Under the pieces are notes generated by a model. It made no database searches. It worked only from the letters and a program-made list of their open reading frames with translations, and had not been told where the DNA came from. 64,000 nucleotides of DNA, taken from positions 1,344,001 through 1,408,000 of the forward strand of contig NZ_CP045403.1 of assembly GCF_009363695.1 (NCBI RefSeq), written 5' to 3'. Source of the stretch: Bacillus sp. THAF10. Lineage in GTDB: Bacteria; Bacillota; Bacilli; Bacillales; Bacillaceae_I. A program made the translations under genes and the position numbers. Shown here one piece after another: positions 6,778 through 56,876 of this stretch (within the stretch, counting starts at the first letter, position 1; the number at the start of each line of letters is the position of its first letter).

Positions 6778-7302
6778 TTAATTGTAGGGCTGCCAGACAA
6801 TCTCTCCTGATTTTGTCTCTTTGTCCAACTCTACATCAAAATCGTGTTTTTTATAGAAATGAACCAGTCGTTCAAGGTGATCCCAGTCTCTCTTAGCAAT
6901 ATCTCCTGTAATGGTATGAACGTTTTGATCTTTGGCTACTTCTTTTAAATAGTCCATACAAATGGAGCCATAGCCTTTGTTTTCTGGGCCTTTAATATCT
7001 CCGATGAAAAGAGTACCGTTATCTTTATATGTTGCTTGGATAGAGAAGTCCCAATGGCCGCGATAGGCTGATTCGCAGTCATTAAGCATTATTTTACAGG
7101 TGTGCGGGTCATCGTTCGTATATACTACCACCCAGTTTTCTTCTTTTGTTTGGTCAATGCCAATAACCTGCCATTTTTTTGCGATTTCTTTCATGTTTTC
7201 TTTCATCCGAAACATTTGAAATTCTAATTGATCTAACTCCTCTTTCAACTCTTCTTTATCTTTTGTCTCTTCTTTTGCTAAAAGTAAGCTTGTGAAAGAC
7301 AT
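6778..7302 (-). CDS. GNAT-like acetyltransferase-fold protein with N-terminal coiled coil
   Basis: 174 residues. Residues 12-45 are E/K-rich and probably coiled-coil. The later part shows the GNAT layout: a beta strand (LFIGDIKG), then the acetyl-CoA loop equivalent ENKGYGSICMDYLKEVA, a buried helix, and LERLVHFYKKHDFDVE, as in acetyltransferase motif B. ATG is preceded by AAGGGGGG. First gene of a two-gene unit with the CHY zinc-finger gene; a sigma-A promoter lies directly upstream. Substrate unknown. Confidence 0.7.
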   Translation of the reverse strand: MSFTSLLLAKEETKDKEELKEELDQLEFQMFRMKENMKEIAKKWQVIGIDQTKEENWVVVYTNDDPHTCKIMLNDCESAYRGHWDFSIQATYKDNGTLFIGDIKGPENKGYGSICMDYLKEVAKDQNVHTITGDIAKRDWDHLERLVHFYKKHDFDVELDKETKSGEIVWQPYN

Positions 7303-7336
7303 CTAATCCCCCCTTGTAATACAAACACAGCATTAT

Positions 7337-7365
7337 ATTATACACGAATTTTACTAATGCTTCAA
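7337..7365 (-). promoter_or_regulatory. Sigma-A type promoter of the GNAT/CHY unit
   Basis: On the minus strand TTGAAG (7360-7365) and TATAAT (7337-7342) are 17 bp apart, just downstream of the RNA gene's terminator. Confidence 0.55.
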
Positions 7366-7775
7366 ATGAAAAAGGAGCCAGGTTATCTAAAAGATAAGCC
7401 TGACTCCTTATGTTTAGTGGCGCTAACTTAAGCGCTAATTAGTAACTTGCTTCTTCACAAGTATGCTATTTCAAAAGGTTATTTTGAATATCTGATTAAT
7501 CATGATTTAATCAATAGTATATAGTGATTAAAAGAATTTAAATTCGTTTGCCGCGGTTAAAATTCCATGGTAGTTTTCTTACTTAAACAACGTAAGCCCT
7601 ACCTCTCATACGTCCTTACGGCTCCTAGACCGTGCCAGATCGATTAAGCTATCTGAGAAAAACTATATGGAACGCCAGTGCATCCTTGTGAATAATTCGT
7701 AAAGCATAAGAATGTCATAACGTTCTTCCTTTCTGTATCAAGTTACTAATAATTTTTGGGTGTTTGCCCAAAACT
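7366..7775 (-). ncRNA. Candidate structured non-coding RNA of about 400 nt, no family recognised
   Basis: A near-consensus sigma-A promoter (TTGACA, 16 bp, TATAAT on the minus strand) starts transcription near 7772-7775, and a hairpin with a T run ends it near 7366. No open frame with a ribosome site lies inside. The 5' end folds as a GGG/CCC hairpin (7754-7760 with 7767-7773). A perfect 12-bp helix joins distant segments 7739-7750 and 7438-7449, closing about 290 nt. Within it, 7659-7665 and 7667-7672 pair with 7571-7577 and 7563-7568; further hairpins are 7636-7640/7651-7655, 7591-7596/7615-7620, 7493-7499/7507-7513 and 7470-7476/7482-7488. I compared it by memory with RNase P, tmRNA, 6S, SRP, T-box, cobalamin, ydaO and glmS and found no match. 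Confidence 0.65.
7369..7409 (-). terminator. Terminator of the candidate RNA
   Basis: On the minus strand AAGGAGTCAGG...CCTGGCTCCTT pairs over about 16 bp with one mismatch and one bulge, loop around TTTTAG, then TTTTTC. Confidence 0.75.
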
Positions 7776-7777
7776 CT

Positions 7778-7805
7778 ATTATACACTTTAAGTTGCAAAT
7801 GTCAA
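7778..7805 (-). promoter_or_regulatory. Strong sigma-A promoter of the candidate RNA
   Basis: Perfect TTGACA (7800-7805) and perfect TATAAT (7778-7783) with a 16-bp spacer on the minus strand, 5 bp after the stop of the PAS-like gene. It does not face any open frame with a ribosome site. Confidence 0.7.
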
Positions 7806-7809
7806 TATG

Positions 7810-8178
7810 TTAAATAAGACGGTTATTATTATCAATTACTTCTTCACTAAGAAGCTGTCGCCATTCTTTTAGTTCACTTTGCACTGTATGATAAGATGCA
7901 TCTTCAGACATACAGACTAAATGAATCATTTTATCCTTTTTCTGGTAGTTGTAAAATACTTTAAACAAAGATGTAGGAGACTCTATTGTTTTTAAATTGA
8001 CCTCCATTGTACCTATAGACGTTGTTTGAAGAATTTGCTTGAATTTACGTTTGCTCTCAAGGTCCACAAGGTCTAAGAAGTTAATTACCGGGTGAAAGAT
8101 ATGAGTGACTGGCTGGGACACATCCACAATTTTAAAGTCATCAGTAAGCTTTAAATAGGGAACCGGAATTCGGTACAT
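7810..8178 (-). CDS. PAS-like domain protein coupled to a B12-binding protein
   Basis: 122 residues starting MYRIPVPYLKLTDDFKIVDVS. The opening (YLKLTDDFKIVDVSQPV), a central helix region (NFLDLVDLESKRKFKQIL) and a later beta region (TSLFKVFYNYQKKDKMIHLVCM) follow a PAS-fold pattern; no kinase or output domain is attached. The ATG overlaps the TAA of the preceding gene (TAATG) and GAGG is about 10 bp upstream, so translation is coupled. I infer the two products act together. Confidence 0.65.
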   Translation of the reverse strand: MYRIPVPYLKLTDDFKIVDVSQPVTHIFHPVINFLDLVDLESKRKFKQILQTTSIGTMEVNLKTIESPTSLFKVFYNYQKKDKMIHLVCMSEDASYHTVQSELKEWRQLLSEEVIDNNNRLI

Positions 8179-8855
8179 TACATCATCACTCCTCTGTTCC
8201 ATTCTTTCATTTGGCTCTGATAGCTTAAAAGCCATTGATAAAGGTAATCAAGATCTTTTGCTAACAAAGTGTCTGGTAAACAGCACGACAAAAAGGCTGA
8301 CTCATCGTGCAAACGGCTGCCAACAATAAACGTGGTGGAAGGACTAATTTCTTTTAATGTATGTAAGGTTTCTTTTAGTTTTGGCAGATAATGTCTTATT
8401 GATACTGACAAGCAAACTACATCTGGTTTCCATGTTTGCAGACTGTATTTAGCGTATTCAAGTGGTAAATTATCTCCAAGGTCATACACATCCCACCCGA
8501 ACTCTTTAAACAGGGAAGAAGCCATCTTTAACCCAAGATTGTGTTCCTCGCCCTCAATACAAAATAGTAATACGCGAGGGAAAGTATCTTTATCCGATGA
8601 TTGTTTTTTTAAATTTGATTGAGCATACATTGCTAAAAGATATTCACACGTGGCGCTTGCAAGGTGTTCTTCAGCAACATTAATTTTGTTTTCCTGCCAT
8701 AGCTCTCCAACATGATACATGGCATCACGTATGAGAGAGTCGTAAATAAATGCACTATGATGACCGCAATTTATTGCTTCATTAAGTAAATCCCATCCTT
8801 TTTGAATATCTTTTTTTAGTAGATATTCTGATAGTTTTATGGAAGTGTCCAACAT
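8178..8855 (-). CDS. Cobalamin-binding protein, CarH-like sensor part without DNA-binding domain
   Basis: 225 residues. Residues 1-80 form the helical cap of B12-binding two-domain proteins and carry the W-x9-EH motif (W53, E63, H64) that in CarH-type photoreceptors caps adenosylcobalamin. The Rossmann-like domain (about 93-215) begins VLLFCIEGEEHNLG with the ExHxxG motif; H105 is the expected lower cobalt ligand. CarH and related repressors carry a MerR-type DNA-binding domain before this module; here it is absent. RBS AAGGAGGG is ideal. It could be a light- or B12-responsive partner switch, or a corrinoid carrier; the missing methyltransferase neighbours speak against the latter. Confidence 0.82.
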   Translation of the reverse strand: MLDTSIKLSEYLLKKDIQKGWDLLNEAINCGHHSAFIYDSLIRDAMYHVGELWQENKINVAEEHLASATCEYLLAMYAQSNLKKQSSDKDTFPRVLLFCIEGEEHNLGLKMASSLFKEFGWDVYDLGDNLPLEYAKYSLQTWKPDVVCLSVSIRHYLPKLKETLHTLKEISPSTTFIVGSRLHDESAFLSCCLPDTLLAKDLDYLYQWLLSYQSQMKEWNRGVMM

Positions 8856-10524: not shown

Positions 10525-10750
10525 GCTAAACCCTCCATATAAATGGTTCCTTTTTGTTCATTATAAAGAAAAACTCATTCGTTTTAAAAAACAAAATAGT
10601 TAGATATTAGAAGAAAACAAGAATAAAAGTTAGAAAATTACAAGAATTTGGCTGAAAACAACAAAATTCAGAAGTTTTCTTTTTAGGTAGTTCGTTATAT
10701 TATCAAACTAAGTTCTAAATAAAGAACAAAATGACTGGAGGAAATTGTCG

Positions 10751-10927
10751 ATGAAGGATGTAATGATTCGCTTGTTTAAAGAAGAAGATGGGCAAGGTTT
10801 ATCAGAATATGGATTGCTTGTTGGTTTAATTGCATTAGCAGTAATAAGTGCAGTTGCGACAGTTGGAGACGCACTAAATGATGTATTTAAGGATATTTCA
10901 GATCAGCTCTGGGGGAAAAAGAAATAA
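10751..10927 (+). CDS. flp: Flp-type prepilin (class IVb pilin)
   Basis: 58-residue major pilin subunit of the Tad pilus. The short positive leader ends in the cleavage motif EDGQG/LSEYGLL, with conserved Glu and Tyr after the cleavage site, followed by one hydrophobic helix (VGLIALAVISAVATVG). ATG at 10751 is chosen over a TTG at 10745 because CTGGAGGA sits 8 bp upstream. A terminator follows directly, before the assembly genes. Confidence 0.92.
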   Translation: MKDVMIRLFKEEDGQGLSEYGLLVGLIALAVISAVATVGDALNDVFKDISDQLWGKKK

Positions 10928-10933
10928 CATTAA

Positions 10934-10968
10934 CAGCTCTGCTTCAACAAAAAGCAGAGCTATTTTTT
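10934..10968 (+). terminator. Terminator/attenuator between pilin and assembly genes
   Basis: AGCTCTGCTT / AAGCAGAGCT stem of 10 bp, then ATTTTTTAA, placed 7 bp after the pilin stop and 21 bp before tadV. It should let much pilin mRNA end here with partial read-through. Confidence 0.75.
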
Positions 10969-10988
10969 AATAGTGAAGGAGGCAAAGC

Positions 10989-11489
10989 ATGCTCATCACC
11001 ATAGTATTATTTTTCGTATTAGGTATTTCTGTTCTGACAGATTTGCAAAACAGAAAAATCTTAAATGCTGTGACAATCCCAGCGATACTATTTGGTTTAG
11101 CATACAATACGTATCTTTCAGGCATCGATGGATTACTTTTTAGTGCTATAGGCCTGTTTATAGGTTTTTTTCTTCTGTTTATTCCATTTGCATTTGGAGG
11201 AATGGGGGCAGGGGATGTGAAGCTGCTGGCTTCGATAGGTGCGATGATTGGTGGAGAACTAGTATTTCAGTCCTTTCTATATACAGCGATAATCGGAGGA
11301 GTGTTTGCCATCATTCTTCTTTTGAAAAATAAGAACATATTGTTCTTTATAAGAAACATAATGTTTCGTTTCTTTTACAAGCAGCCTGCTTTGGAAGGGG
11401 AAAAAGTTTTGGCTAAACATTCCATTCCATATGGAGTGCCAATTGCTTTAGGAGTTTTAAGTCTTTATTGTTTTGGAGGACTTATATGA
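10989..11489 (+). CDS. tadV: Prepilin peptidase TadV/CpaA (A24 family)
   Basis: 166-residue polytopic aspartic protease that trims the Flp prepilin and TadE-type pseudopilins. The two catalytic Asp lie in LTDLQNRKI (about residue 16) and in the family motif GMGAGDVKLLA (about residue 75). About five or six hydrophobic segments; it lacks the N-methylation domain of long PilD enzymes. RBS GAAGGAGG. Stop overlaps the tadE start by 4 bp. Confidence 0.92.
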   Translation: MLITIVLFFVLGISVLTDLQNRKILNAVTIPAILFGLAYNTYLSGIDGLLFSAIGLFIGFFLLFIPFAFGGMGAGDVKLLASIGAMIGGELVFQSFLYTAIIGGVFAIILLLKNKNILFFIRNIMFRFFYKQPALEGEKVLAKHSIPYGVPIALGVLSLYCFGGLI

Positions 11490-11857
11490 AATCTCAAAAA
11501 GGTCAATCGCTAGTAGAATTTGCACTTATTCTTCCTTTAATCTTGTTTCTATTATTTGGGATGTTTGACATGGGGAGGGTTCTTTTTGCAGCAATCGCAC
11601 TTGAGCATGCCGCTAGAGAGGGTGCTAGAGTGGCCAGTGTTGGAAAATCAAATTCTGAGGTCATCACTTCCATTAATAATGCAACAACAGGTCTGGATTC
11701 CAATTCAGTTAGCATTTCTATATCCTCTACTGCAAGAATTCCTGGGGAAAATATTGAAATTGAGATTAGTTACCCAGTCAACATGGTAAATCCCGTTTGG
11801 AGATCCTTTCAAGAGACATTTGTTCTCTCTTCTAAGTCTGTCATGAGGGTGGAGTAA
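11486..11857 (+). CDS. tadE: TadE-like pseudopilin
   Basis: 123 residues. N-terminal KSQKGQSLVEFALILPLILFL is the TadE domain with a prepilin-like cleavage site after KGQS and one membrane helix, followed by EHAAREGARVASVG, a hallmark of the family. ATG at 11486 overlaps the tadV stop (ATGA) and has TTGGAGGA upstream. Minor pilus component at the membrane. Confidence 0.9.
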   Translation: MKSQKGQSLVEFALILPLILFLLFGMFDMGRVLFAAIALEHAAREGARVASVGKSNSEVITSINNATTGLDSNSVSISISSTARIPGENIEIEISYPVNMVNPVWRSFQETFVLSSKSVMRVE

Positions 11858-11858
11858 T

Positions 11859-12788
11859 ATGTGGAGAAAAATGATAAAAAACGACGATGGAAATGCTTTA
11901 GTGTTGATGGCATTTATTCTTTCACTATTGGTAGGTTTATGTGGTGTCGTCATTGATGGGGGCAGACTATACCATCAAAAGGGTGAGCTTCAAAAAGCAA
12001 TCGACGCAGCTGCTCTAGCTGGTGCACAACAGCTTGGGAAAGGGCAAACGGAAATAAAGAACACTGCAATTGAAATGGCAGCTAAAAATGGAATAACAGT
12101 AGCAGCCAGTGAGATTACAGTCACATCTTGGTATGTAGCAATATACAAAACAGTTCCGAAAGAGATGACCTTTGCAAAAGTATTTGGATTTTCTTCTGTA
12201 GATGTGTTTGCTAAAACGAAAGCATATAAGGACAGTTCAAAAGGACTTGCAAAACATTCTCAAGTTTTGCCGGTGGGAATTCCAGCAACGAAAGCAGTTC
12301 CAAATAAGCTACATACTTTGCATTTTACACCAGCTAGTGGAAGTGAAGGACCTCAGCAAGGGAATTTTGGATTTCTTGCAATTGGGGGACGCGGGGCCGA
12401 TGTGTTAGAGGAGAATATTGTAAACGGGATTGAAGGAGAAGTGAATACCATAGTAACTACAGAGCCAGGCCTAAAATGGGGGAAGGTTCGTAGTGGTTTT
12501 CAGACAAGAATAGCAAATGATCAAGGAAAAGCCCATTGTCAGTCCCATTCCACAGCAACAAAAGATTGTTCAAGGGTAGCTATCGTTCCTGTGGTAGAAT
12601 CTTACGGCGTTGCAAATGGTAGAAGCCAAGTGAAAATTATTGGTTTTGCTGCATATTGGATAGCTGAGGTCGAACCGAATGGAGCAGAGAAAAGTGTAAA
12701 GGGTTATTTTGTGAATATGGTGACTTCTGGAGTGTTTCGTCATGAGGTAAAAAATTATGGGATAAGTAGAATAAAACTCTACTATTAA
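11859..12788 (+). CDS. tadG: TadG-like pilus assembly protein
   Basis: 309 residues. N-terminal DDGNALVLMAFILSLLVGLCG is the Tad/TadG-type membrane anchor, then VVIDGGRLYHQKGELQKAID and AAALAGAQQL, the conserved post-helix region. The rest (about 80-309) is an extracytoplasmic domain; a von Willebrand A domain, found in long TadG proteins, is not evident. RBS GGTGGAG next to the tadE stop. Co-transcribed with its neighbours. Confidence 0.85.
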   Translation: MWRKMIKNDDGNALVLMAFILSLLVGLCGVVIDGGRLYHQKGELQKAIDAAALAGAQQLGKGQTEIKNTAIEMAAKNGITVAASEITVTSWYVAIYKTVPKEMTFAKVFGFSSVDVFAKTKAYKDSSKGLAKHSQVLPVGIPATKAVPNKLHTLHFTPASGSEGPQQGNFGFLAIGGRGADVLEENIVNGIEGEVNTIVTTEPGLKWGKVRSGFQTRIANDQGKAHCQSHSTATKDCSRVAIVPVVESYGVANGRSQVKIIGFAAYWIAEVEPNGAEKSVKGYFVNMVTSGVFRHEVKNYGISRIKLYY

Positions 12789-12805
12789 ATAGGAGGAAAA
12801 CATAA

Positions 12806-13360
12806 ATGACATTGAAAAAGGTTTGGTTATTATCCATCACATTTGGGATAGTAAGTACAGTTTGCTTCTCCCTCTTTTATATACCTAGTGGAAAAGAGAA
12901 GCATCCCTCACCTTCAGAGGTCGTTCTTGCAGCTGAAGAAACGGAAACAGAAGCACCTCAAGAAGTGTTAACAATCGAAAAAGGAAAAAGAGCGCTATCT
13001 ATCGCTGTAAGTGATGTCCAAGGAGGATCAGGAAACCTCACATCTGGTTCCATGATTGATATTTTCGCAAATATCATTTCAATGGACAAAAACTCAGAAG
13101 AAGAAGAACCAGCTGAGTTTGGAACCTATGTTTTACAAAATATTAAAGTATTAGCAATCGGCCACAATGCAGAGGACCCAGAAACTGCTGCAAGATATCA
13201 GATGATTACTGTAGAAGTAACTCCTGAAGAAGGAGCAAAACTTGCTTTTGCATCTCAACATTCTCTCTATGCGTTACTCAGACCTGAAGGAGACGATTCT
13301 GTATTAAAGGAAAACGTATTAATTGATGAAAAACAGCTGCTTAAGATTGGAGGCCAGTAA
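12806..13360 (+). CDS. cpaB: CpaB/RcpC-like pilus assembly protein
   Basis: 184 residues with an N-terminal membrane segment (VWLLSITFGIVSTVCFSLF), an acidic linker, and a CpaB-type beta domain: GKRALSIAVSDVQGGSGNL, GSMIDIFANI, VLQNIKVLAIG, MITVEVTPEEGAKLAFA. In diderms CpaB meets the secretin; here there is none, so it probably spans membrane and wall. Shorter than typical CpaB (about 260), with the N-terminal SAF part reduced. Confidence 0.8.
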   Translation: MTLKKVWLLSITFGIVSTVCFSLFYIPSGKEKHPSPSEVVLAAEETETEAPQEVLTIEKGKRALSIAVSDVQGGSGNLTSGSMIDIFANIISMDKNSEEEEPAEFGTYVLQNIKVLAIGHNAEDPETAARYQMITVEVTPEEGAKLAFASQHSLYALLRPEGDDSVLKENVLIDEKQLLKIGGQ

Positions 13361-13361
13361 C

Positions 13362-14540
13362 ATGTTGAAATGGTATGGTTTTTTAAATGAACATGACGAA
13401 AAAATTCAAGAGATGATCCTCTGGCTTTCTGAAGATGAAAATTATAATGGCTTAACAACCATTGATGAACTACTGAATGAAATGAATGCGCCAGACAAAC
13501 GTATCATTTTTATCGATAAGTCAATCTCCCCAAATTTTTATTCGCTAACCATGCAGTTAAAAAAGCTACATCCAAACAACTTTGTTATTTTGGTAGGAAA
13601 GGATCTAAAAGAAGCGGATATCAGACTAGCAATGAGAGCAGGTATGATGGACTGCATCAACCTCCAGGACGATATTGAATTAATCAAAAGTTGTTTGCTT
13701 GAATCCAAAAGACATATAAATCACATTCATAAGCAGGATACTTTCGTTCCAAGTTTTACACATAAGGAAGGGAAAATTATTACTGTCTCCAGCACTAAGG
13801 GAGGAGTCGGGAAAACGACGTTTGCGGTTAACCTTGCTTATTCCCTTCAGAAAGAGGAGCAATCGGTAGTCATCGTTGACCTTCATTTACAATTTGGTGA
13901 TGTTAGCATGTTTTGCGATGTAAAGCCCAAAAAAACGATTTATGAGTGGGTGAAAGAAGATTTTGACCGAAAAAATAGAAATGTGCAAGCATATTTAACA
14001 AAAACGTATGTAGAAAATGTCTCCATCATTGCCGCTCCATTACGCCCTGAGTTCTCTGAAATTATCACAACGGAACATATAAGAGAGCTGTTCTTAGAAT
14101 TAAAAAGATGGTATGACATTATCTTAGTGGATACACACTCTCATGTTGATGACCTCTTCCTTGAAACGTTGGAACTCTCGGATGAAATTTATGTCTTAAG
14201 CACAGGAAATCTCCCGGCTATTAGAAACACCAAGCTTTTTATTGATACGTTGCATTCTTTACAGTTGAAGGCGACTCCCCTAATTGTCCTGAATGATGTA
14301 AAAAAAGATGATCCATTAAAAGAAGAGAATGTGAAAAAAATTCTTGGATTGAATAAGCTTGCTGTTCTTCCTTCTGATGAAAAAATCGTAAAAAAATCCA
14401 TTGCTTCAGGAGTTCCTTTTGTAGCCGATAGTCCGAAAAGTGCACTGTCAAAAATGTACTTAAAAATAGCTGAAGCATGTATCCAAAAGCATGCGTCATA
14501 TAAGGCTGAACCTGTGGCAAGTGCTGGGAGGAGTAAATAA
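13362..14540 (+). CDS. cpaE: CpaE/TadZ-like pilus localisation ATPase (MinD/ParA fold)
   Basis: 392 residues. N-terminal 120 residues resemble an atypical receiver domain (IIFIDKS, FVILVGKDLKEADIRLAMRAG) without a clear phospho-Asp set. The C-terminal P-loop ATPase shows the deviant Walker A KGGVGKTTFAVNLA and VVIVDLHLQFGDVS. In Tad systems TadZ/CpaE positions the machine. ATG at 13362 lies just after the cpaB stop with TTGGAGGCC upstream; 1-bp overlap with the next gene. Confidence 0.88.
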   Translation: MLKWYGFLNEHDEKIQEMILWLSEDENYNGLTTIDELLNEMNAPDKRIIFIDKSISPNFYSLTMQLKKLHPNNFVILVGKDLKEADIRLAMRAGMMDCINLQDDIELIKSCLLESKRHINHIHKQDTFVPSFTHKEGKIITVSSTKGGVGKTTFAVNLAYSLQKEEQSVVIVDLHLQFGDVSMFCDVKPKKTIYEWVKEDFDRKNRNVQAYLTKTYVENVSIIAAPLRPEFSEIITTEHIRELFLELKRWYDIILVDTHSHVDDLFLETLELSDEIYVLSTGNLPAIRNTKLFIDTLHSLQLKATPLIVLNDVKKDDPLKEENVKKILGLNKLAVLPSDEKIVKKSIASGVPFVADSPKSALSKMYLKIAEACIQKHASYKAEPVASAGRSK

Positions 14541-15892
14541 TGTCTTTACTTAGAAGACTGAATGGAGAAAAAAACGAGATGGTTTTAGAACCAAAGGAGT
14601 TTCGCCATTCAAGTAAAAATAATAAATTAGTCTATCCATTACAATTTAAAGAAATAGAGACACTCCTGCACAATTATTTAGTAGAAGAACTAAAACGATT
14701 ATCAGTGGAGGATGGAGAAGTAGAGGATAAAGTTGCAGAGCTGAGCGATGATTTCTTCCTTAGTAGAGATGATGTATTAAACTATGAGGAAAAACAGGTG
14801 ATTATCCAAAATGTCATCTATGAATTAACTGGATATGGACCTATAACTCCGCTATTAAAGGATCAAGAAGTAACGGAGGTGATGGTGAATGGACCAGATA
14901 AAATTTATATTGAGAAATATGGCAAGATAATAAAAACTCCTTTTTCGTTTCGAGACAATGCACATGTTTTAAAGATTATTGAACGTATCGTAGCGCCAAT
15001 CGGAAGAAGAATCGATGAAAGCCTTCCTATGGTTGACGCCCGCTTACCTGATGGATCACGGGTTCATGCCATCATTCCCCCCCTTGCCATGAACGGACCC
15101 ACCTTAACCATTCGGAAATTTCCTGATAATCCATTAACCATAAAAAATCTCTTAAGAAACGAAGCGCTATCGTATGATATGGCAAGTTTCCTCAAGGCAT
15201 GTGTGGAAGCAAAATTAAATATGATGGTAAGCGGTGGTACTGGATCTGGAAAGACCACGTGTCTTAATGTGTTGTCTTCGTTCATATCTGAAGATGAGCG
15301 AATTGTTACCATTGAAGACTCAGCCGAACTTAGGCTTTCTCAAGAGCATGTTGTTACCTTGGAAGCTAGATTAGCTAATGTGGAGGGAAAGGGCGAAGTG
15401 ACAATAAGAGATCTCGTGAAAAACGCCCTTCGGATGAGACCTGACAGAATCATTGTTGGAGAGGTTCGTAGCGCAGAAGCTCTTGATATGCTTCAAGCGA
15501 TGAATACCGGCCATGATGGAAGCTTAGGGACGGGTCATGCTAACTCTCCAAGAGATCTTTTATCAAGAATTGAAGTAATGGTGATGATGGCTGGTTTTGA
15601 TCTTCCTGTCCGAGCGATTAGAGAACAAATTGCTGGTGCTCTGGATTTAATTATCCATCAGGTAAGGTTAAAGGACGGAACTAGGAAGATTACACATATT
15701 ACGGAAGTATTAGGGGTCATAAACGACACTATTGTGCTGCAAGACTTGTTTACTTTTGAAGAACAAGGGAAGAGTGACACTGGTAAAGTGAATGGGAAGT
15801 TTGTTAAAACAGGTATCCGACCGAGCTTCTTTGAAAAGTTTGAAGCCCAAGGAATAAAAATTCAACCTTCATGGTTCACAGAGGAGGGATAG
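14540..15892 (+). CDS. cpaF: CpaF/TadA secretion ATPase
   Basis: 450-residue hexameric traffic ATPase that powers Flp pilus assembly. Visible: GYGPITPLLKDQEVTEVMVNG (N-terminal domain), Walker A SGGTGSGKTTCLN near residue 232, Asp box VTIEDSAELRL, Walker B MRPDRIIVGEVRSAEALDML and His box GSLGTGHANSP. Length and order match the TadA family. Starts with TAATG overlap after cpaE. Confidence 0.95.
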   Translation: MSLLRRLNGEKNEMVLEPKEFRHSSKNNKLVYPLQFKEIETLLHNYLVEELKRLSVEDGEVEDKVAELSDDFFLSRDDVLNYEEKQVIIQNVIYELTGYGPITPLLKDQEVTEVMVNGPDKIYIEKYGKIIKTPFSFRDNAHVLKIIERIVAPIGRRIDESLPMVDARLPDGSRVHAIIPPLAMNGPTLTIRKFPDNPLTIKNLLRNEALSYDMASFLKACVEAKLNMMVSGGTGSGKTTCLNVLSSFISEDERIVTIEDSAELRLSQEHVVTLEARLANVEGKGEVTIRDLVKNALRMRPDRIIVGEVRSAEALDMLQAMNTGHDGSLGTGHANSPRDLLSRIEVMVMMAGFDLPVRAIREQIAGALDLIIHQVRLKDGTRKITHITEVLGVINDTIVLQDLFTFEEQGKSDTGKVNGKFVKTGIRPSFFEKFEAQGIKIQPSWFTEEG

Positions 15893-15895
15893 TTA

Positions 15896-16861
15896 ATGGA
15901 GACGATTGTAATATTATTTCTTTCCATTGTATTCTTTTTTGTCCTCTTCCTGTTATTGATGATGATCAAAAATAAACAACCAAGAGAAATAGCAAGGCTG
16001 TATAAATATTTGTCATTATCGAATTCATCTATACCTTCAGAGATAAATGGAAAGAAAAAAGTAAAAAGAAAGAATAAAGCAATTATCGGTATGAGCAAAT
16101 CCCTCGAAAGAAACTTTAAGCTTTCAAACTTAAGACAACAGCTTTTGTTCGCTGGATACAGTGTTGGCCCAGGGGAATTTCTTGTGAGAACCATTTTGTT
16201 GGCAGCATTGATTAGCTGTGTATTGTTTCTGATTTTTTCTTCCGCTTTAATTGGTGTCCTCTGCTTTATCATTGGATTGATTGTCCCATATATTTTAATG
16301 AAGAGAGCAATCATTTCAAGAAATAAACTGGCAAGCCTACAGTTGATTCAGGCATTAGGAATTATGGCAAACTCCCTTCGTGCTGGGTACAGTTTTTTGC
16401 AAGTAATTAAATTAATTTCGGAAGAGTCACCAAAGCCACTCGGAAAAGAGTTTGGGAAAGTAATCCAAAATGTTAATCTAGGGTTATCTCTAGAGGAATC
16501 ATTTGCTCAATTAAAATCAACTTTTAATAATCCCGATCTCGAAATGGTGTTAACTTCTATCTTAATACAACGGGAAAGCGGTGGAGACCTTTCAAAGTTA
16601 TTAGAGAGCATACAGGAAACAATGATTGGGAGATTGAGGGTAAAAGATGAGGTGAAAACCCTCACAGCACAAGGAAGGCTTTCTATGTATGTTATTATTT
16701 GCATTCCTGCTGCAATAGGAGTATATCTCCAACTCGTAAATCCTGATTATTTTCAAATGATGTTCCAACATCCCCTAGGCTGGATGATGCTCTCCATGGC
16801 ATTTATCGGCGTGTTTCTAGGATGGATTATCATAAACAAAATTGTGAGCATTGAGGTGTAA
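15896..16861 (+). CDS. tadB: TadB inner-membrane platform protein (T2SSF domain)
   Basis: 321 residues with two N-terminal and two C-terminal hydrophobic regions and a central T2SSF domain (GIMANSLRAGYSFLQVIKLI, LSLEESFAQL, LTSILIQRESGGDLSKLLE). Forms the membrane platform with TadC for the CpaF ATPase. RBS GAGGAGGGAT; 3-bp gap after cpaF. Confidence 0.92.
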   Translation: METIVILFLSIVFFFVLFLLLMMIKNKQPREIARLYKYLSLSNSSIPSEINGKKKVKRKNKAIIGMSKSLERNFKLSNLRQQLLFAGYSVGPGEFLVRTILLAALISCVLFLIFSSALIGVLCFIIGLIVPYILMKRAIISRNKLASLQLIQALGIMANSLRAGYSFLQVIKLISEESPKPLGKEFGKVIQNVNLGLSLEESFAQLKSTFNNPDLEMVLTSILIQRESGGDLSKLLESIQETMIGRLRVKDEVKTLTAQGRLSMYVIICIPAAIGVYLQLVNPDYFQMMFQHPLGWMMLSMAFIGVFLGWIIINKIVSIEV

Positions 16862-53304: not shown

Positions 53305-53461
53305 TACAATAATAAAAGCCCCTTTCCACAAGAAAGAGGCTTGAAGTTAACTTCTCCCCTCTTATCTGTCAGAAAAATTTCTGCAAGAATTAGCACCGTG
53401 CTTGAAAAAGTCGGTTGCCGGGTTTCATAGGGCCAGTCCCTCCACCTGCTCTTGATAAGAG
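53305..53461 (-). promoter_or_regulatory. SAM-I (S-box) riboswitch of mtnKA with terminator
   Basis: The minus strand carries the S-box landmarks in order: CTTATCAAGAGCAGGTGGAG (P1/P2), GGGACTGGCCC, ATGAAACCCGGCAACC, AAGCACGGTGCTAATTC (P4) and GATAAGAGGGGAG (P1 3' strand). A terminator AAGCCTCTTTC-TTGT-GGAAAGGGGCTT with T run ends the leader 43 bp before mtnK. High SAM should end transcription. Confidence 0.96.
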
Positions 53462-53672: not shown

Positions 53673-53794
53673 ATTTAGAAAATTATCACTTGTTGAAAAT
53701 AATAACAAGGCACTTGGAAAAATGTCAACATCTTTTTGCAATCTGATTATTTTGAAAAATAACAAAAGATAATATGAATAATTTGGATTTAACC

Positions 53795-53823
53795 TTGAAA
53801 AAAACATAAGTACCTGTTATTAT
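53795..53823 (+). promoter_or_regulatory. Promoter of the cold-shock gene
   Basis: TTGAAA (53795-53800), 17 bp, TG-T-TATTAT (extended -10 at 53818-53823). The transcript would have a leader of about 110 nt, as usual for cold-shock mRNAs. Confidence 0.6.
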
Positions 53824-53922
53824 TAAACTATTATTTTTGTTCGTGAATATGGAAAGTCAGAAACAAAGTTTTCGTCTTGAAATGTTTGAAAGAGCAAGAA
53901 TAGTAATATTTACGTGGGTTAA

Positions 53923-54138
<216 letters not shown>

Positions 54139-54152
54139 TGCTAGCCAAATAG

Positions 54153-54186
54153 AAAGGACCCTAGTGATAGGGTCCTTTTATTTTTT
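54153..54186 (+). terminator. Terminator of the cold-shock gene
   Basis: AAAGGACCCTA-GTGA-TAGGGTCCTTT followed by TATTTTTT. Confidence 0.88.
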
Positions 54187-56648: not shown

Positions 56649-56727
56649 AATTTCTGTTGACATCCACGTGAAATGATGGCATAATCGCAACTAGATTTTA
56701 TAAAAAAATGATCAAAACCTAATTCAA

Positions 56728-56876
56728 TCTTATCAAGAGCAGGTGGAGGGACTAGCCCTATGAAACCCGGCAACCGACTTTTTACAAGCACGGTGCTAAT
56801 TCTTGCAGCAAATCGCTGATAGATAAGAGGATGTTAGATAACCTAACCTCTTCTTTAGCGAAGGGGTTTTTTGTTT
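56728..56876 (+). promoter_or_regulatory. SAM-I (S-box) riboswitch of mtnWXBD with terminator
   Basis: Same landmarks as the mtnKA leader: CTTATCAAGAGCAGGTGGAG, ATGAAACCCGGCAACC, AAGCACGGTGCTAATTC and GATAAGAGG, followed by the terminator AACCTCTTC-TTTAGC-GAAGGGGTTTTTTG. The mtnW start codon lies 30 bp after it. Confidence 0.96.

Follow-up and report, generated by a model that had tools for sequence, protein, structure and literature searches.

A putative full-length BsrC RNA of Bacillus sp. THAF10, lying on the strand opposite to its Rfam model

OLE, ROOL, GOLLD and raiA are large, highly structured RNAs without conserved coding, and their functions are obscure or partly known. The RNA described here shares with them its size, its structure and the lack of conserved coding. 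None of the four families gave an Rfam match at the gathering score in the window (the whole stretch of 64,000 nucleotides of Bacillus sp. THAF10 DNA that was analysed), nor in 7300-7900 at E values up to 10. FsrA, SR2/BsrF and RsaE are built as a short seed plus a terminator, whereas the BsrC RNA is about four times longer and has a covarying three-way core. The original report on BsrC is said to be that of Saito et al. in 2009. In the published sources, bsrC is a B. subtilis RNA located between ydaG and ydaH (PMC3574147), and BSGatlas lists an additional copy between cspC and ydeB (PMC8208703), which makes two copies on record for strain 168. In the Hfq co-immunoprecipitation of stationary-phase B. 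subtilis cells, bsrC stands with 53.6-fold in the first row of the putative-sRNA table, in the same table as FsrA, SR2/BsrF and RsaE, and the data carry no strand information (PMC3574147). A BsrC transcript of 322 nt was found in Paenibacillus riograndensis (PMC5670726). The FZB42 study did not detect BsrC and cites it as expressed in vegetative cells and undetectable in the stationary phase (PMC4634765); the stationary-phase Hfq result fits poorly with this cited absence. 'BsRC' in PMC11805744 is a strain name, and PMC7154689 does not deal with BsrC. Among the open-licence papers listed, judged by title and abstract opening, none addressed what BsrC does or which strand its Rfam model represents.

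To identify the RNA, we scanned the whole window with cmscan and obtained five gathering-level matches, of which only BsrC (RF01410) overlapped 7366-7805. The match reached 75.4 bits, the gathering score being 38, and covered positions 1-87 of the 87-nt model, so the locus is homologous to B. subtilis bsrC of the ydaG-ydaH interval over all model positions and has the same core. The model differs from the window copy in that it lies on the opposite strand, takes in 87 of about 405 nt and omits the helix P5, while the window copy belongs to the long forms and has the helices P1 and P2 and the motif ACCGCGGC. The RF01410 consensus structure, laid on the window, had four positions (two pairs) that were non-standard and left P5 unpaired. 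RNase P, tmRNA, 6S, SRP, T-box, glmS and the other Rfam families had no match at the gathering score in 7366-7805, and a relaxed scan of 7300-7900 (E up to 10) gave five further matches, all far below their gathering scores. The earlier note had called the RNA unassigned, and this did not hold, as a known family matches 87 of its roughly 405 nt, although on the opposite strand; formally, this is the kind of hit that the note had named as refuting its reading. Its picture of a discrete, structured, apparently non-coding and probably trans-acting minus-strand RNA has stood. With somewhat better than even confidence, we read the window RNA as the species' full-length BsrC RNA, about 405 nt long and on the minus strand, which would work as an Hfq-associated trans-acting ribonucleoprotein or regulatory RNA. 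The features are as follows.

7800..7805, minus strand: -35 hexamer TTGACA (sequence, promoter scan)
7778..7783, minus strand: -10 hexamer TATAAT, 16 nt from the -35 hexamer (promoter scan)
7369..7773, minus strand: putative BsrC RNA of about 405 nt, its start predicted by the spacing from the promoter and its end placed at the T-run of the terminator
7754..7773, minus strand: 5' hairpin on the initial transcribed bases (fold, promoter scan)
7739..7750, minus strand: P1 5' arm of the 12-bp long-range helix (direct reading, fold, long-form comparison)
7644..7718, minus strand: 24-codon frame with AAAGGAAG upstream of its ATG, judged non-coding (codon-position test)
7667..7673, minus strand: P2 5' arm GUUCCAU, pairing with 7568-7562 (covarying across long forms)
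7577..7663, plus strand: Rfam BsrC (RF01410) match by cmscan, on the strand opposite to the RNA
7576..7651, minus strand: three-way core (model R1), 83.5 bits to R1, the window being one of the 77 sequences from which R1 was built
7649-7645/7585-7581 and 7642/7588, minus strand: core helix P3 (pair counts)
7638-7637/7616-7615, minus strand: core pairs (pair counts)
7633-7629/7622-7618, minus strand: core helix P4 (pair counts)
7614-7607/7596-7589, minus strand: core helix P5 (pair counts)
7597..7606, minus strand: near-invariant P5 loop AGAGGUAGGG, exact in 50 of 75 matches and variant in the other 25
7562..7568, minus strand: P2 3' arm AUGGAAU (covarying across long forms)
7547..7557, minus strand: ACCGCGGCAAA, conserved, immediately 3' of P2 and marking the long form (long-form comparison)
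7438..7449, minus strand: P1 3' arm of the 12-bp long-range helix (direct reading, fold, long-form comparison)
7369..7409, minus strand: intrinsic terminator, hairpin 7409-7372 plus T-run 7373-7369 (minimum-energy fold)

On the minus strand at 7805-7778, TTGACA-16-TATAAT matches the consensus at 12 of 12 positions. Promoter-like sites numbered 6 in the 751 scanned bases, compared to 2.8 +/- 1.6 in shuffled sequences, and the site at 7805-7778 was the single perfect one. The minimum-energy fold formed the 5' hairpin at 7773-7754, several internal helices and, at the 3' end, a 17-bp hairpin (7409-7372) with one bulged base that runs into TTTTT (7373-7369); the simple terminator scan of the region did not list this 3' hairpin. 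The perfect 12-bp helix between 7739-7750 and 7438-7449 could be read directly in the sequence and was also formed in the fold. The promoter, 5' hairpin, long-range helix, internal helices and Rho-independent terminator described in the earlier note were thus all recovered on the minus strand of 7366-7805. These sites suggest that transcription would start at the RNA's own near-consensus promoter and end at its own terminator. Both strands folded better than shuffled sequences, with z -4.76 for the minus strand and a slightly stronger z -5.19 for the plus strand, so energy alone is no guide to the strand.

To determine whether the core is conserved as a structure, we aligned 77 cores less than 90% alike, chosen out of 179 records (alignment A1). 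The results showed that 95.1% of 1617 cells were paired and that 18 of the 21 pairs changed on both sides. Covariation was 0.421 compared to 0.211 in shuffled alignments, and 0 of 500 shuffles reached the observed value. Structures slid along the alignment paired at most 51.1% of cells, a control that leans in favour of the structure, which was taken from a 160-sequence alignment. For a second, model-fitted alignment (A2), R1 was run on 75 sources, 44 of them earlier and 31 out of 34 later ones, with one match per source; all 21 pairs changed on both sides, and covariation was 0.567 compared to 0.233 shuffled. Two matches left out of A2, L183 (87.2 bits) and L192 (43.3 bits), look close to included ones. 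A third, L191 (E 5e-4; 24.9 bits), lies by eye in an apparent coding gene, was judged spurious and was dropped from A2 and from the terminator count. The strongly diverged copy L184 (37.6 bits) has the P3 letters UCUAG with CUAGA and keeps the pairing, and in L185 and L190, also diverged, P3 is unpaired in the model alignment. Conservation and covariation in relatives, which the earlier note had proposed to look for, were therefore strongly positive in a core that it had not singled out.

The P5 loop read AGAGGTAGGG in 50 of the 75 matches and AGAGGCAGGG in 10, and the remaining 15 had other letters or lengths, chiefly near the central GG. Its pattern can be written AG, N(1-2), GG, N(1-2), A, GGG, where N is variable and T replaces the A in 3 of 75; the centre accepts U, C or A, and length changes fall beside GG.

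Outside the core, the long forms share three elements. In P2, CUGGCRUUC pairs with the segment directly upstream of ACCGCGGC, and in the 53 of 55 long forms that have the first motif (all but L044 and L096) the best helix averaged 6.96 bp, compared to 5.98 bp with partners swapped, the maximum of 50 swaps being 6.23. The P1 arms AGUAACUUG and CAAGUUACU paired perfectly over 9 bp in 25 of the 55, against 1-11 of 55 in 20 shuffles, and 18 of these 25 pairs share identical arm sequences. The 12-bp helix that had been put forward for a covariation test thus showed few compensatory changes and is mostly conserved as sequence. The motif ACCGCGGC, or a near form of it, was the selection criterion for long forms, which makes its own conservation a matter of construction; its flanks were not selected for, and among 50 distinct stretches the preceding base was A in 94% and the following base A in 82%. 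The distance from inferred start to first terminator was 206-401 nt in the 29 long forms with both ends found by script, of which at least two (L055, L123) rest on weak promoters; the window, whose bulged terminator was not taken, is not among them. GAACGUUA and UGGCGUUC can form a local hairpin that looks good in the clade of the window; across 44 long forms its support is weak (a mean of 6.16 bp, compared to 5.65 bp after swapping partners and at most 6.02 bp in any of 100 swaps), and we did not retain it. ACCGCGGC also looks complementary to the 16S 530 loop and similar to the T-box sequence, but we judged the 8-base match compatible with chance and dropped it. Short forms were seen downstream of a CarD-like gene (ydeB) in L078, L001-L005, L007 and others. 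CarD-like upstream neighbours numbered 26 in a cluster of 27, with one member, L078, confirmed by Pfam, and the short form near ydeB has a long conserved 5' part and lacks ACCGCGGC.

The RF01410 model had matches in 53 of 61 genomes (our own and 60 relatives) and, among 14 control genomes, in Bacillus subtilis alone, strain 168 having been entered solely as its positive control. R1 matched 129 of 150 genomes drawn from the order, in 67 of 83 genera; 15 genomes carried two matches, one second match being the spurious L191. In wider samples, R1 matched 98 of 200 genomes of the class and 10 of 299 genomes of the phylum, all ten within the window's class; absences in these counts are soft, as the filters in the genome search drop weak matches.

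To determine which strand encodes the RNA, we aligned 160 distinct cores from 178 fetched loci and the window. The P5 pair 58-80 (UA 70, CG 47, UG 43) was standard in 160 of 160 cores on the minus (RNA) strand and in 117 of 160 on the other, and the P5 pair 60-78 (AU 72, GU 39, UA 36, CG 7, GC 5, UG 1) in 160 of 160 and 120 of 160, respectively; pairing is lost on the Rfam strand because G-U pairs turn into A-C. One P3 pair was standard in 156 of 160 cores on the RNA strand compared to 87 of 160 on the Rfam strand, and RNAalifold gave the 160-core alignment -25.8 on the RNA strand and -16.8 on the opposite one. Promoter-like sites (at most one mismatch per hexamer) were found on the RNA strand in 44 of 57 long forms, defined here by an exact ACCGCGGC no more than 160 nt away from the core, compared to 3 of 57 on the opposite strand, and in 33 of 113 short forms compared to 16 of 113 (loci not de-duplicated); the other 80 of the 113 short forms had no RNA-strand promoter-like site under these rules. 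By the script rule, 81 of 168 distinct loci had a terminator within 290 nt on the RNA strand and 87 had none there, compared to 7 of 168 within 270 nt on the opposite strand. Gene order was also informative. In L078 (Bacillus halotolerans), L102 (B. tequilensis) and L150, a PNPOx-family gene, the BsrC core and amj follow each other on the RNA strand, and by its position and family we take the first gene to be ydaG. In L150, L216 and L217, such a ydaG-like gene runs in the same direction as the core and amj, and R1 found two copies each in the genomes of L078 and L102, two close relatives of B. subtilis, one of them between the ydaG-like gene and amj. Because these flanking genes are co-directional, a bsrC segment that strand-specific arrays joined with its upstream gene should be on the same strand. 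As covariation, promoters, terminators and the ydaG-amj order all favour the minus strand, RF01410 would model the complement of the RNA, and its strand appears to be an error of the family rather than a sign that the window RNA is not a member.

The opposite view, that Rfam is correct and BsrC is a short plus-strand RNA, with the minus-strand features incidental or belonging to an antisense partner, could draw on the curated plus-strand model and its 75.4 bits, on a plus strand that folds equally well (z -5.19) and on the promoter-like sites of the plus-equivalent strand counted above in 16 of 113 short and 3 of 57 long forms. It would have to accept A-C mismatches for G-U at two P5 pairs in 43 and 40 of 160 cores, a family structure that lacks P5 and has two non-standard pairs in the window, and the scarcity of terminators (7 against 81 of 168), and we regard it as hardly credible. 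A minus-strand RNA could also encode a small peptide, either as a messenger only or with a second function as RNA. The earlier note had stated that no reading frame with a ribosome site lies inside, which was incorrect: a 24-codon frame at 7718-7644 has the ribosome site AAAGGAAG and an ATG, and the segment from ATG to AGTTTT is 60 nt in 16 of 17 clade members of three genera. Variable sites in this frame are spread evenly over codon positions 1, 2 and 3 (8, 10 and 9 in the clade comparison), and pN (0.182) is close to pS (0.206), with 0.199/0.152 and 0.187/0.250 in the other frames (11 distinct sequences). It is frame-shifted early in L029 and late in L022, L023 and L024, was not seen by eye in the other long forms inspected, and in all five clade members that were folded the 60-nt segment forms a hairpin whose stem is the conserved part. 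The frame thus appears to vary like RNA rather than protein; we judge it non-coding, and the messenger reading very unlikely. A type I toxin-antitoxin RNA is about as improbable as the plus-strand view. No frame of at least 20 codons kept a constant place and length in 16 of 16 clade members on either strand, among the five longest frames of each member (an antisense 31-codon frame occurs in 8 of 16, the 24-codon frame in 12 of 16), and such a broad spread across the order is unlike mobile toxin systems. In its favour, BSGatlas gives bsrC this label (PMC8208703), and other Bsr RNAs are toxin systems, bsrE being so marked in the Hfq table (PMC3574147).

Neighbouring genes bear on whether the RNA acts in cis or in trans. 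They fell into 190 similarity clusters, a number that includes spurious short frames. In the 83 distinct pairs of neighbours with frames of at least 100 aa on both sides, the downstream gene shared the strand of the RNA 46 times and lay on the other 37 times, and the upstream gene 40 and 43 times, respectively. A compact core with near-invariant loop residues looks like a ligand-binding or tertiary fold, and the 174-aa gene at 7302-6778 lies downstream on the same strand, as would suit a cis-acting leader or riboswitch. That gene has its own promoter-like TTGAAG-17-TATAAT at 7365-7337, the RNA has its own terminator hairpin, and the downstream gene is opposite in those 37 of 83 pairs and of many kinds, so that we consider a leader very improbable. 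Since unrelated genes flank it in different species, the BsrC RNA most likely acts in trans, as judged from gene order. A trans-acting RNA might pair with mRNAs, the P5 loop serving as the seed for antisense contact, and both the exposure of this near-invariant loop and the co-purification of B. subtilis bsrC with Hfq (PMC3574147) speak for it. We nevertheless give it a lower weight, as a rather unlikely reading: the genome itself shows no enrichment of the loop complement CCCTRCCTCT (9 occurrences, the RNA gene included, against 17 of the reversed pattern), and the variability of the loop at its centre and beside GG fits a tertiary or protein contact better. Somewhat less likely still is an order-wide, housekeeping-type large RNA like 6S or SRP, whose three-way core would carry a D-loop-like hairpin that docks on a conserved machine binding the tRNA elbow, or would be the core of an unknown ribonucleoprotein or ribozyme. 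The loop table can be read as resembling a tRNA D-loop, a likeness that we offer as a lead only.

Our best guess remains that BsrC is a trans-acting, Hfq-associated ribonucleoprotein RNA. The RNA would fold with P1 as an outer long-range helix and P2 as a second helix around the covarying three-way core of P3, P4 and P5, and this core would hold out the near-invariant purine loop of P5 and present it to one conserved partner that reads it. Hfq would be a probable associate, and the product a stable ribonucleoprotein or regulatory RNA. We assume a single mechanism for all forms, though the short forms lack ACCGCGGC. The hfq gene was present in our own genome and in 150 of 150 sampled genomes; since the latter comprise the 21 without a BsrC match, co-occurrence is uninformative for Hfq. 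So far as the open-licence papers listed show, the strand, size, architecture and order-wide breadth of BsrC appear to be new. If RF01410 does represent the wrong strand, annotation pipelines and over-expression designs built on it would target a molecule other than the RNA. Now that its strand, limits and structure and a near-invariant loop are described, function is directly testable in B. subtilis 168, and should BsrC turn out to be a general ribonucleoprotein, it would be one of very few.

The window holds several other features. Upstream of the RNA on the same strand, 8178-8855 (minus) encodes a B12-binding protein with Pfam B12-binding and B12-binding_2 matches, and the gene is overlapped by that of a 141-aa protein at 7810-8235 (minus) with no Pfam or NCBIfam match. 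The 174-aa protein of 6778-7302 (minus) is by eye GNAT acetyltransferase-like and likewise had no Pfam or NCBIfam match. A cluster at 10745-16861 (plus) resembles by eye a Flp/Tad pilus locus (pilin, prepilin peptidase, and TadE/TadG-, CpaB/CpaE/CpaF/TadB-like proteins). Two SAM riboswitch aptamers were found at 53359-53461 (minus, 89 bits) and 56727-56829 (plus, 81.6 bits), and 53747-54182 (plus, 436 bases) gave a marginal match to the cspA thermoregulator, 81.2 against 78 bits.
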